20,388 nucleotides of DNA from a virus: positions 1 to 20,388 of IMG/VR virus record IMGVR_UViG_3300009149_000371. The stretch is one strand, 5' to 3'. The notes under the pieces were generated by a model. It saw nothing but the letters and a program-made list of their open reading frames with translations. It ran no database searches and had not been told where the DNA came from. The translations under genes and the position numbers were made by a program. The first letter of the stretch is position 1. Each line of letters begins with the position of its first letter. Shown one piece after another: positions 127-12,800 of this stretch.

Positions 127-303
127 CTACTCTTTAAACGGACACCCCTCGTCGGAATTGAGGTATTCGATGCGCTTGGTTAAGGCTATTCGATCCACTT
201 TAGCCTGGCAAGCTCGTCCGTAATCTCCTTGAGCCTTGGTTCTTGATCCCAGGTGTCTTTCGGAACTTCCTTCTTCAGTATCCTTTCGTCCATAATGCAT
301 CAT
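127..303 (-). CDS. Small phage protein, 58 aa, unknown function
   Basis: The frame opens with ATG ATG at 303-298 and closes at TAG 129-127. The first ATG overlaps the stop of the preceding 13-codon frame in an ATGA arrangement, and AGAGGA lies just upstream, so translation is probably coupled. The C-terminal half looks protein-like, with RACQAKVDRIALTKRIEYLN followed by an acidic stretch and a CPF motif near the end. The N-terminal half is rich in Gly, Ser and Arg and looks less natural. A second frame at 186-293 overlaps it and may be the real coding frame for that stretch. I do not recognise the family. Confidence 0.5.
   Translation of the reverse strand: MMHYGRKDTEEGSSERHLGSRTKAQGDYGRACQAKVDRIALTKRIEYLNSDEGCPFKE
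186..293 (-). CDS. Alternative or overlapping 35-aa reading frame
   Basis: The frame runs from ATG 293-291 to TAG 188-186, inside the 58-residue gene but in a different frame. It begins MDERILKKEVPKDTWDQEPR and continues as a charged, helix-forming sequence ending LARLKWIE. This composition is more typical of a small phage protein than the overlapping part of the 58-residue frame. GAGGA lies about 10 bases upstream, further than ideal. Either the two frames overlap, or one gene has been split by an indel near 190. No family is recognised. Confidence 0.35.
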   Translation of the reverse strand: MDERILKKEVPKDTWDQEPRLKEITDELARLKWIE

Positions 304-341
304 TCCTCTTCTTCATCCACTAAAAAGTTAAATGTTATCAT
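300..341 (-). CDS. 13-codon minigene: duplicated tail of the small gene upstream of the oxygenase
   Basis: The frame is MITFNFLVDEEEE followed by a stop. Its ATG (341-339) overlaps the TGA of the oxygenase gene (340-338), and its TGA (302-300) overlaps the ATG of the 58-residue gene (303-301). Both junctions are ATGA, the usual form for coupled translation. The peptide matches the C-terminal end of the broken small gene at 945-1054 (VNFLVEEEND), and the two share 16 identical bases. It is best explained as a leftover copy of that gene's tail, kept when the oxygenase gene entered. Whether the peptide has a function is unknown. Confidence 0.45.
   Translation of the reverse strand: MITFNFLVDEEEE
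316..331. repeat. Direct repeat, left copy (16 bp) flanking the oxygenase gene
   Basis: TCCACTAAAAAGTTAA occurs here and again at 961-976 in the same orientation. The two copies sit just outside the two ends of the 2OG-Fe(II) oxygenase gene. Here it encodes the NFLV part of the 13-codon frame. Confidence 0.85.
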
Positions 342-952
342 AGTATCAATTCTGTTAAGTTTTTATTATCTCCAATAATTCCTTTAATAAATACATTAAA
401 AGCTAAACTAATTCTAGTATTATCTCCTTCTTTGGTTTCCACCATATGAGGTAAAGAAGAAGGAAATAGTATAATATCTCCAGTTTTAACAGGAAACCAC
501 CATGTTTCTGAATTGTATAAATTCCAATCTCTAACTTCTAGTTTAATAGTTTTGTAATTATCCTTAAAAAATTTAATCTTATCATGTTCTTCATGGCCGT
601 TAATATAGAATACACCAGACACTAATGAATTAGGGTGTGCGTGTTTATGATGATATTGATTAGTTTCAGTATAGTTTAACCAAGACTGTGTAATATAAGG
701 AGTAACCGCATCTCTGGTGGATATCACTTTGTCAAAATAATCTTGTACTATTAAATCTAAATCTTTTTTAATATTGGTAAAGGGTGTTTCATTAAGAATA
801 TAATTATTATTAGAGGTTATGTTACCATCATTTTTATAGCAATCTTTTTTAGATTTATCCACGAACTTTAATTCTAATGGTGTTAATGCTCTATTTAATT
901 TTGACATATAGACAGGGGTTGGAAATATCCCACTAATATTAGATTCAATCAT
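338..952 (-). CDS. 2OG-Fe(II) oxygenase family protein (204 aa)
   Basis: This is a putative Fe(II)/2-oxoglutarate-dependent oxygenase of the small phage and marine bacterial type (2OG-FeII_Oxy_5-like). Visible signatures are SWLNYTETNQYHHKHAHPNS (about residues 89-108, with the first metal-binding region), SGVFYINGHE, then GDIILFPSSLPHMVE with the distal histidine, and TRISLAFN with the arginine expected to bind the 2OG carboxylate. Length suits the family. The substrate is unknown; protein, nucleotide or small-molecule hydroxylation are all possible. The start at 952 follows a GGAGGAAG ribosome binding site. The gene is markedly more AT-rich by eye than its neighbours, with A- or T-ending codons, and a 16-bp direct repeat brackets it. 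Both suggest recent acquisition. Confidence 0.85.
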   Translation of the reverse strand: MIESNISGIFPTPVYMSKLNRALTPLELKFVDKSKKDCYKNDGNITSNNNYILNETPFTNIKKDLDLIVQDYFDKVISTRDAVTPYITQSWLNYTETNQYHHKHAHPNSLVSGVFYINGHEEHDKIKFFKDNYKTIKLEVRDWNLYNSETWWFPVKTGDIILFPSSLPHMVETKEGDNTRISLAFNVFIKGIIGDNKNLTELIL

Positions 953-1054
953 TTTCTTCCTCCACTAAAAAGTTAACCGTCCGTACATCCCCGTCCTTCT
1001 TAACAACCTTAAAGTACTCCGGACGAGAGGTTTTTCGTTATCTGACGGCTTCAT
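945..1054 (-). pseudogene. Small phage gene (about 36 aa) split by an apparent -1 frameshift
   Basis: ATG 1054-1052 has a good ribosome binding site (AAGGA, about 8 bases upstream) and reads MKPSDNEK. In frame 0 it then becomes implausible and stops at 965. Moving to the -1 frame at the run of five A (complement of 1031-1035) continues as TSRPEYFKVVKKDGD and ends VNFLVEEEND at TGA 947-945, overlapping the oxygenase start. The downstream frame has no start codon of its own. One missing A, through mutation or sequence error, or programmed -1 slippage at the A run, would rejoin the two halves. The ORF overlaps the end of the 83-residue gene. The family is not recognised. Confidence 0.55.
961..976. 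repeat. Direct repeat, right copy (16 bp) flanking the oxygenase gene
   Basis: This is the second copy of TCCACTAAAAAGTTAA, identical to 316-331 and in the same orientation. Here it encodes the NFLV part of the tail of the frameshifted small gene, immediately upstream of the oxygenase ribosome binding site. Confidence 0.85.
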
Positions 1055-1289
1055 TGCTTTTTCCTTTCTTTCCTTTGCGGAGGCGTTCGGGCTCGTTACT
1101 ATAGCCGCGAATTTGGGTTACGTTATGACGTCTCATTTCTTTCAACAACACCTCGCACACCTCTACGGGCAGACCTGTGGTTTCTTGTAGTTCTTTTGTT
1201 GCGGACTTCATATTTGTTTGCCCGACTCGATAGTCAACCATTGCGTCTATCATTCCGGTCACATCTACTTTGGTTTCAATTTTAGCCAT
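1038..1289 (-). CDS. Hypothetical protein, 83 aa
   Basis: The protein starts MAKIETKVDVTGMIDAMVDY, has a mainly helical middle containing TTGLPVEVCEVLLKEMRRH, and ends in a basic tail rich in Lys and Arg (RKGKKGKS). It overlaps the end of the SNF2 helicase gene by 25 bases, with AGGA of its ribosome binding site inside that gene, so the two are probably co-expressed. No signal peptide or membrane segment is visible. The basic tail would fit nucleic acid binding, but that is a guess. I do not recognise the family. Confidence 0.7.
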   Translation of the reverse strand: MAKIETKVDVTGMIDAMVDYRVGQTNMKSATKELQETTGLPVEVCEVLLKEMRRHNVTQIRGYSNEPERLRKGKKGKSNEAVR

Positions 1290-3361: not shown

Positions 3362-4150
3362 ATGAATGAAGTAGCTAACAAAAAAGGAACCGCCGTATCG
3401 ACCGATATTATGGACGATATTTTCGAGACAGCAGGAGAAGGTACAACTTTCGACAGCTCTGAAATGCAAATCCCTTTTGTGAGATTGATCCAGGCTCTAT
3501 CGCCTCAACTCAACAAAAAGAAAGCGGAGTTCATTGCGGGATCGTCGCAAGGAGATGCCTTCAATACGGTCACAAGCCAGTACTGGGCGGGAGACTCAGG
3601 ACTTATAGTTGTTCCGTGTTACCAGACTACTAAGTACCTAGAGTTTGTACCCCGTGAAAGCGGTGGTGGATTTCAAGGGGAGATTCCAGCAGGAGATCCT
3701 CGGATTCAGCAAGCGTCTAGGGTGGGGTCAAAGGAAATACTTCCGAATGGCAACGAGCTTGTGAAGTCAGATCAACACTTTTGTATTGTTGTTGGTGAAG
3801 ACGGAACCACACAACCGGTCGTTGTGGATATGAAATCCACACAATTAAAAGTCAGCCGGCGGTGGAAGACACAGATTGCTATGCTAAAGATCAAACATCC
3901 GACGACAGGTGCTATGATCTCTCCAGCAGTTTTCGCTACGAAATGGAAACTCACCGCAATCGAACAGTCTAATGACAAAGGTACATTTGCCAACTGGCAG
4001 GTGGAGAATGTAGGCCTCGTTGATAGTCGAGATCTGCTACAAGAAGCCAAAGCTTTCCGCGCATCGATTGCGGCAGGCGAGGTGAAGGCGGCTGCGGAGG
4101 ATGTTCCTAACCCCTCCAGTACTGAAAACGAGGATGACATTCCGTTTTAA
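3362..4150 (+). CDS. Putative single-stranded DNA-binding protein (262 aa)
   Basis: The C-terminus is an acidic tail ending NEDDIPF, the same tip as bacterial SSB, which docks replication and repair partners. The body is β-rich (VTSQYWAGDSGLIVVPCYQT, FCIVVGEDG), fitting an OB-type fold, but bears no obvious sequence match to bacterial SSB. Ser/Ala/Glu-rich linker sequence precedes the tip, as in SSB. GGAGGAAG overlapping the end of the previous gene is the ribosome binding site. Position next to primase and polymerase genes supports the role. The assignment rests on the tip and context rather than a catalytic signature. Confidence 0.65.
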   Translation: MNEVANKKGTAVSTDIMDDIFETAGEGTTFDSSEMQIPFVRLIQALSPQLNKKKAEFIAGSSQGDAFNTVTSQYWAGDSGLIVVPCYQTTKYLEFVPRESGGGFQGEIPAGDPRIQQASRVGSKEILPNGNELVKSDQHFCIVVGEDGTTQPVVVDMKSTQLKVSRRWKTQIAMLKIKHPTTGAMISPAVFATKWKLTAIEQSNDKGTFANWQVENVGLVDSRDLLQEAKAFRASIAAGEVKAAAEDVPNPSSTENEDDIPF

Positions 4151-4165
4151 GTATATCAGTCCCGT

Positions 4166-9889: not shown

Positions 9890-12800
9890 CTATCTCTATG
9901 TTCTGAGGGTTGTTACCCAATAAGGAGGGCGGTGTCGCAACTCTGTTGCTAGGTGTGTTAAGAGCTGCGAATGGATTACCCACAGGTGGTGCACTGTTAG
10001 GTGTGTTAAGAGCTGCGAATGGATTACCCACAGGCTGGGACGTCGGAGCTTGGGCCTGGGGTCTATACAAATTGACAGGCTCCCTGGAGAGTGGTGCAAC
10101 AGGTTTTGCTGGAGTAAACTCTGGGTCCTTGGTTAGTTTTTCTTTCTTAAACTGTTGATATGCTTTTGCTATATCTCCAGATGGAAACTGGTTCATGATG
10201 CCGAACCTCCTCATCTTATTCTTTATTTGAGAGCTTACTTTGTACGGATCAGAAAGTCCTCTGCTTACTCGATCAACTCCCGTGACGTTATTCTTTTCTA
10301 AGATGTTTTTTATTTTAAAACGGGACAATCCCAACGCTTTTCCATCCTCAAACATCTGAAACATTTTCTCGTCTGCTTTTTGTAAAGCTATATTTGCTTT
10401 TATGTAGCCTTGCAGCAAACCCTCTGAGTTAATGTTTCTATCGTCGGCAAGAGAAGTAAATTTTTGTTTGGCTTCGGACTGTTGTTTCTTTATGTCAAGA
10501 CCTTTGTATCGAATGTTTTTTTCGGGGTCGAAAGTTATCGGTCGGAACCCTAGCATGCCTAACGCCATCGACTTATCCATGCCGTATTCATTCCCTTGTT
10601 TGTCCATTGAATCGATGAACCCGTCTTCAGAGCCTAAAATTCCTCGAATAAATTTTCGCGGGACTATCTCTCCTCCCCGTCCTTCGAAAGGTAGAATATT
10701 TGGGATGGCGGTATTAGCCATGTGGATACCGCCTTTTTTAACTTTATCCGCCCAGGAATCCGCAGGAGAAAATATTTTTGCACCCGTGTCTGACATCCCT
10801 GAACCAAAAGGATTTCCCTCTTTGATTGCTTTTGCCGACATGGAAAATTCCATGAAAGGCTTCATGGATTCAGCCATAGATGTAAACATAGCTCCGGCTA
10901 AAGCTTCGGAGGATCTTTTTCCGTGACGCTTAGATGTAGCAAATGAATCCATTCCACTTTTCATAAGTTTAGCAATGTCATTGTATGGGTTGAAGGTGCT
11001 GAAGTTAATGAACTGTGGGTTGCCTTTTTTATCTACACCAATAGGAACTAACGTAGCATATTTTTCCCAAGGAGCTCCGAAAGACCTCTTGTACGCTTCT
11101 ATTTGATCTTTTCCTATTCCAGTAGCAAGCATCCCCGCCTGAACCGTTGCAGTGGGAACCATTATAGTTGTTGCGAGTACTCCCGACGCTCTTCTCATGC
11201 CTATGTTTTGAACCGCAGGTATATCCGAGGCTAATTCTTTCAAGGCTTGGTCAACAGTATTAAACCCTGTTCTATAAACCTCATATGGAAAAGTTACGAA
11301 GTTTCCAAAAGGAAGTTTTCTCATCCCTCGAATAAGACTAGGAGCTACGTCATAGTTTGGGACAGTATCTCGTACAATCTGACCAGCTCTGTCCTTAATT
11401 AACTCGTCTACCTGACCCGCGTTCAGATTAGAAGGCACTGGTGTTTCTGGGGATAAGTGTCTGTATTTATCCTCAATACTTAAATCGTTTAATGCACTTC
11501 TTAATTTATTTTGTTCGAACTTATAGTTGTAGATCTTCCAACCATCGTCACTACCTTGGTACAGTTTATCCATTAAGGTGGTAAAATCTTTGGCTGAGGC
11601 TTTGTATTCACCCACCCCTACCTTTTTATTCATTGCTCTTTGTACTGGGCCTTTAGAGAACCCTTTAAAAGACGGAGCGCCATATCCGCTCAACAATTCT
11701 TGGATCTCTCTTAAGTTAGCAGAGGTTCCGATTATGCCTCTTGACTGCATTTCTGCAAGTTCCTTAAGCATTGCTTCATCACCTGAGTTACGCATGTTCT
11801 TAAAAACGATATCAAAAGATTCTTTTAAACTTGCTCCTCGGCCTAGGTTTCCTTGCATCAAAGCAAACATGGATGCACTAGTAAGGTTTCTAACCTGTGT
11901 TACTGGAGACAAAACAGTTTTGGAATATTGAGTCACCCCTTTTACTTTCATCGCACCACTAAGACCCCTAGCGGCAATGTCCCAGAAATCTTTAGAGTTC
12001 CCCACTTTGTGTACAGTCAGGTCGGTATAAATTTGTTTGGGAACCATGTACCCATTTAGAACGCCCCAACCAGATTGATCCAATTGGTTCATGTCCAAGT
12101 TCGCATCTTTTAGAACATCATCTCCAAGTTCTCCGGGTCGAAAGGACGAACCCTCTTTTTCAGCACCTAATTCAACGTAGCCTTGTTTCCTCAAATTAGC
12201 TTTTTGTGCGTCGTTCAAAGACCCAGATTTACGAAACAAGGTTCCGATTCCCGTATTACTCTCTGCCGCTTTACGAATGTCATCAAAAAAAGTGTCCGCT
12301 GCTTTGAAGTTTGCTAAGTCTGAAATGGTTTGCACATACGCTTGGGTCGGGTTTGAAATTTCCCCCATCACTTCTCTTAGTTCTGGAGCGATATTCTTTC
12401 TTTCCAAAAGCATATCCGTGTTTAGCCGAACGCTTCCAATTCTGCCCGCCTCCACGTTCCTAGCACCACTAAAGGAATGTCTTTCTAGAAAAGATTTCGT
12501 AGCGGCTTCCGCAGCTTGGTCGTTCACACCATTTAAAAACTTTAATCCAACAATTTCCTGGGCACCCTCTGCGTTCGCTTTTGTCACAGCCGTTGCACCA
12601 ATTTCTTTCATGAAAACTGGATTCGTAAAATCTAACTCATTAACACCAGGAACATTTCTTATTGCTGCTTGAGTCAGTTCATCTTCCGCCATTGCTTTTC
12701 CACCAGTTCTAAAGAACTTGTTTGCAACCATCTGAGCGTCTTTTGTCGGGGCGTACTTTGTGTTTCTATGGATTTCGTAATCTCTTCTTAAGTACCCTTT

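Follow-up and report, generated by a model that had tools for sequence, protein, structure and literature searches.

Genes 67 and 68 of Island3, a mycobacteriophage of cluster I, have 60 bp of their 3' ends in common (PMC3029335). An extra gene, the end of which repeats the 3' end of the upstream gene, lies there beside another gene; the repeat of about 60 bp is within the new gene's own 3' end, and the related phage Brujita holds a single copy (PMC3029335). In the HTVC023P-type phages eight non-orthologous 2OG-Fe(II) oxygenases are reported (PMC9599517).

Here we describe a 20,388-nucleotide stretch of viral DNA (the window; IMG/VR record IMGVR_UViG_3300009149_000371), in which a gene for a 2OG-Fe(II) oxygenase is flanked by two copies of the tail of a small gene, termed X. 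As in Island3, the 3' end of the upstream gene is repeated beyond the inserted gene. In the window, unlike in Island3, the repeat is about 23 nt long and lies outside the oxygenase gene, and the donor boundary can be read.

The oxygenase gene and its neighbours

The PolA protein of the window is 50–53% identical to those of the Pelagibacter phages HTVC023P, 023Pt_psg01 and DSL-LC04, and the window is therefore assigned to a podovirus like those of the HTVC023P type, of which it is a fragment. A search of bacterial genomes for its helicase found none. Elsewhere in the window, at 9950–10040, two perfectly matching stretches of about 37 nt, spaced by 48 nt, lie near the 3' end of the gene for a 1402-aa protein with GNPFAALNT repeats.

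The oxygenase matches the whole of the PF13759 profile (positions 1–101 of 101) with an E-value of 3.2e-22 and 79.3 bits, against a cut-off of 27, which places it in this family. It also matches the PHROG family phrog_81 (E 1.8e-41). The only relatives with solved structures are 2rg4 and 3bvc, both uncharacterised. The protein is presumed to be an auxiliary enzyme. Its identity to the proteins of other phages is 74–88%. The gene has a GC content of 27.6%, compared with 43–44% in the flanks and 44.7% in the whole window. It is missing from all 47 loci that share the helicase (as first fetched), and in L002, L012, L013 and L333 there is no oxygenase between the conserved gene g83 and the next gene. 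This absence in relatives is a mark of a horizontally acquired gene, as are an identifiable donor lineage and boundaries that fall on gene edges, both of which are found here. The insert codes for the oxygenase alone and has no flanking inverted repeats; it shows neither the recombinase or endonuclease gene nor the defined ends of a transposon or homing-endonuclease insertion.

In the same four relatives, about 60 nt after g83 comes a gene beginning ..KYR(N/T)V... The window contains a gene start (MKYRNLAVISEDLDLLKIV) that matches this gene, cut by the contig edge at 58–1. About 1 kb of additional sequence, which consists of X, the oxygenase gene and a 35-codon gene (Table 1), is therefore present in the window. 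The small gene with a WDQxPR motif is on the strand opposite to the helicase in L012, L013 and L333 and on the same strand in the window, so the block could have changed place or orientation.

Table 1. Features around the oxygenase gene, in window coordinates
Feature	Position	Strand	Description
35-aa gene	186..293	minus	Likely a real gene, downstream; overlaps a 58-aa ORF (127–303) in another frame
Repeat copy B	300..331	minus	Tail NFLVDEEEE-stop; inferred native end of X, leading into the next gene
Chimeric mini-ORF MITF/NFLVDEEEE	300..341	minus	13 codons; ATG overlaps the oxygenase stop codon (ATGA)
Right crossover	329..331	minus	TTA common to donor and recipient; donor of the L113 type compared with copy A
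2OG-Fe(II) oxygenase	338..952	minus	204 aa; PF13759, phrog_81; 27.6% GC; acquired gene
Repeat copy A	945..976	minus	Tail NFLVEEEND-stop of X; 976–954 recipient-derived, last codons are the oxygenase start
Small gene X	945..1054	minus	ATG (1054) and tail in different frames; break around 1030–1036
g83	1038..1289	minus	83-aa conserved gene upstream of X; relatives have homologues (53–69% identical) immediately following the helicase

Weak homologues of the product of the 35-codon gene (MDERILKKEVPKDTWDQEPRLKEITDELARLKWIE) that carry a W(D/E)..DPR motif occur in L013 (tblastn E 0.003), L168, L165, L214 and L333. The overlapping 58-aa ORF has no relative in viral contigs or phages, which is consistent with a wrong frame. 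The preliminary description expected the tail of the small gene to lead into this 58-residue ORF in genomes that lack the oxygenase; the 35-aa gene, which has homologues, is more likely to be the next gene.

X itself is frame-broken. The ORF that begins at the ATG (MKPSDNEKPLVRSTLRLLRRTGMYGRLTF) stops inside the repeat, and the frame that encodes the tail has no start codon. The two are separated by a one-base frame break near the sequence GAAAAAC, which is either real or a sequencing error. Programmed frameshifting was considered and rejected, as the codon phasing at GAAAAAC, read from the sequence, gives no standard slippery heptamer. The tail frame has a codon score of 8.0 bits over 30 codons, compared with means of 8.7 in frame and -3.2 off frame. 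The small gene proposed earlier upstream of the oxygenase keeps its tail peptide but lacks an intact reading frame, and X is best treated as a putative gene, for which the tail peptide and the codon score argue. The position of the ATG is that at which the gene after g83 starts in the more distant relatives L003, L006, L010, L011, L015, L016, L018 and L020. No relative with X was found, and the closest ones (L002, L012, L013 and L022/G001) lack it altogether. We infer an empty site in which X was present and the oxygenase absent; none of the relatives examined has such a site. Two tail copies without the oxygenase, or the oxygenase without the repeat at the same boundaries, were likewise not seen among the relatives.

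The flanking repeat and its junctions

A 16-bp exact direct repeat outside the AT-rich oxygenase gene, with matching peptide tails that each end in a stop codon, had been described before, and all of this is found as described. The repeat lies at 316–331 and 961–976, just outside the gene (952–338, minus strand); the 16-mer is TCCACTAAAAAGTTAA, which reads TTAACTTTTTAGTGGA on the minus strand (976–961 and 331–316). Extended without gaps it covers 32 nt, of which 28 are identical (300–331 and 945–976).

The 16 nt are the longest stretch common to the 100-nt flanks of the oxygenase gene, where 1000 dinucleotide shuffles gave at most 12 nt. Since a 16-mer repeat arises anywhere within 2.5 kb in 1/300 shuffles, it is the placement at both edges of one gene that makes the repeat significant. 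Among 1249 genes of the window and of related phage fragments, the start-side and stop-side flanks share at least 16 nt in two, the oxygenase gene and one gene of L233; by this count, flank duplication is not a general rule among these phages. The 16-mer has 26 matches in all viral contigs, none of them in the gene context seen here. The degenerate pattern VNFLV(D/E)E(E/D) has 48 matches, none a small-gene tail of the X kind, and many of these resemble tail-tube proteins. A search with the pattern YFKVVKKD gave no match.

The two tails differ after the repeat, and this had been taken to mean that the event was old or that the tails came from different phages. The junctions explain the difference instead. 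The left tail ends in the start region of the oxygenase gene, its last codons AAT GAT TGA being formed by the gene's own ATGATTGA, so the tails diverge because of a junction and not because of age. The part of the repeat derived from the recipient is 23 nt long (976–954 and 331–309), and 22 of these are identical. The sole difference is a G in the left copy and a T in the right. The G creates a Shine-Dalgarno sequence, GGAGG (963–959), 6 nt ahead of the oxygenase ATG, and the right copy retains AGAGGA before the next gene. The idea that the left repeat was brought with the donor's own leader was dropped, as the leaders of the donors agree over no more than 3 nt ahead of the ATG.

When the region is aligned as DNA with 80 donor-type loci, the similarity covers essentially the oxygenase gene only, typically from 953 to 338, at 80–87% identity. 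In about 80 donor-type genes it starts with the oxygenase start codon and ends at or just past the stop codon. The donor-type contigs have about 32% GC, and the neighbours of the oxygenase gene in them include tail genes.

On the right side the donor match continues for 9 nt beyond the stop codon and ends within the beginning of the gene that follows in the donor (MITFILG...), which encodes 36 aa (MITFILGTILGVYLG...). Six loci (L113, L116, L118, L127, L340 and L342) read ATGATAACATTTA past the stop and then TACTTGGAACT... (ILGTILGVYLG), and the window at the oxygenase end reads ATGATAACATTTA and then ACTTTTTAGTGG... L113, L116, L118 and L127 have the 9 nt past the stop (TAACATTTA) in common with the window and then diverge into MITFILGTILGVYLG. 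Over its first 13 nt (341–329) the mini-ORF MITFNFLVDEEEE exactly matches the beginning of the next donor gene, and the repeat opens with the same TTA that marks the switch point. Because the donor match runs 9 nt into the donor's next gene and then gives way to the tail of X, the mini-ORF is a fusion of donor and recipient that begins as the former's next gene and ends as the latter's tail. The diagnostic match on this side is short, with 6 nt unique to the donor and 3 nt shared. The donors that match here have 76–77% protein identity and are not those closest over the gene body (85–88%). Elsewhere in the window, all of 178 ATGA sites match the post-stop sequences of the same donors over fewer than 7 nt, compared with 9 nt at the junction; ATGA sites in the donor loci reach 9 nt in 0.7% of 2681 cases.

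Origin of the arrangement

The repeat and the boundaries of the donor sequence can be shown directly, and so can the chimeric mini-ORF and the break in composition. We consider it likely that the oxygenase gene came from an unrelated AT-rich phage and was acquired by two homology-poor crossovers within the last codons of X. At the left crossover the tail of X would have been joined to the oxygenase start codon; at the right one the opening codons of the gene that follows in the donor (MITF..) would have been rejoined to the tail of X at the TTA microhomology. About 23 nt of X would thereby have been kept on both sides of the oxygenase gene. The left copy would end X and give the oxygenase gene its Shine-Dalgarno sequence, GGAGG, and the right copy would provide one for the following 35-codon gene, so that the string of genes could stay translationally chained through ATGA-type overlaps. 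The order and mechanism of the crossovers are those we infer, as is the view that the duplication was kept because of its ribosome-binding site. The earlier proposal of a foreign gene inserted at the end of a small gene, with its tail kept on both sides, is supported in part: it agrees with the donor boundaries, the TTA switch and the drop in GC content, and no genome with the empty site was found.

The single recipient-derived difference between the copies would also fit two alleles. In that case the oxygenase gene could have been joined to a related X tail elsewhere and the cassette gained by short homologous recombination between X tails, of which a 60-bp version has been described in Island3 and Brujita (PMC3029335). 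This would still require one illegitimate junction somewhere, and thus an added step, and the searches gave no further contig with an X-like tail; we regard it as unlikely. Both copies contain Shine-Dalgarno sequences, and the 17-nt flank repeat in L233 includes the ribosome-binding-like GAAAGGAAAG, so the similarity might instead reflect convergence, in which ribosome-binding leaders that encode acidic tails cause GAGGAAGAA-like DNA to recur. The conserved half TTAACTTTTTAGTGG is outside the Shine-Dalgarno sequence, however, and flank sharing by chance extends to at most 12 nt, which leaves convergence very improbable.

The insert lies between direct repeats that are nearly exact, and L333 has a similar layout; this could also suggest a target-site duplication, made by a mobile element or by staggered-cut capture with a transposase or homing endonuclease. 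We give this an equally small chance, as the insert has neither of these enzymes nor terminal inverted repeats, its ends are set by codons and the copies have 1 mismatch in 23. Chimeric metagenome assembly has to be weighed because the record is of an uncultured virus and ends near the site, and because X has a frame break. Assembly k-mers are usually longer than 16 nt, the length of the exact repeat; in addition, every donor found differs from the gene by 12% or more, and both joins form plausible overlap and ribosome-binding-site junctions. An assembly artefact is therefore the least probable of these explanations.

Parallel cases and known systems

A different PF13759 oxygenase, only distantly related, is encoded in the close relative L333 (record G001; 3489–4163, minus strand). 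Its gene lies between two small genes that are direct neighbours in L012. It is directly upstream of the WDQDPRF small gene and is absent at that junction in L012. The L333 gene is preceded by CAGTTAGAGGAGATTAAAAATG and followed by ATTAGAAGAGAGGATTAAATG, where L012 has GAGTTAGAGGATTAAATG; DNA resembling TTAGAGGA..TTAAA..ATG, tail-like and bearing a ribosome-binding site, is present on both sides. The similarity is short and like a Shine-Dalgarno sequence, and it is no more than suggestive of entry by the same kind of event. In L233 a 17-nt repeat, TCAACTAGAAAGGAAAG, part of which resembles a ribosome-binding site, lies on both sides of a gene for a 77-aa protein (164–490).

With L333 as an independent case, single auxiliary genes might, in this phage group, repeatedly enter ATGA-coupled junctions between small genes and duplicate the upstream ribosome-binding tail, so that newcomer and displaced gene both stay translated. 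We hold this generalisation to be distinctly doubtful; if it were true, recombination between the tails could cleanly remove the newcomer gene.

It is seldom easy to read the mosaic joints of phage genomes. At this locus donor and recipient can be distinguished, as can a 3-nt microhomology and a duplicated ribosome-binding tail, and the locus provides a concrete example of how a foreign gene can enter an operon of closely packed, translationally coupled genes and leave the neighbouring genes unsilenced. Single-gene acquisition of this kind is already known, and the general picture of phage mosaicism is unchanged; what the locus shows is a clear trace of common gene exchange between phages, at a junction that can be read unusually well.

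Like phage morons and other illegitimate single-gene insertions, the locus has one foreign gene of differing composition, absent in relatives and joined at gene boundaries. It would differ from morons in that expression of the oxygenase seems to rely on the duplicated, putative ribosome-binding tail. The oxygenases of HTVC023P-type phages share superfamily and phage group with the gene in the window, whose close kin, in contrast, are in AT-rich phages with tail-gene neighbours; a position beside the helicase operon is not described in the portion of PMC9599517 used here. The PeSL mobile regulatory cassettes of T4-type phages, attributed to Arbiol et al. 2010, resemble the locus in having repeated regulatory DNA on either side of shuffled genes. 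They are promoter and stem-loop cassettes, whereas the repeat in the window is a coding tail with a ribosome-binding site that was found once. Island3 is a close and the nearest published precedent for this single-gene acquisition (PMC3029335).
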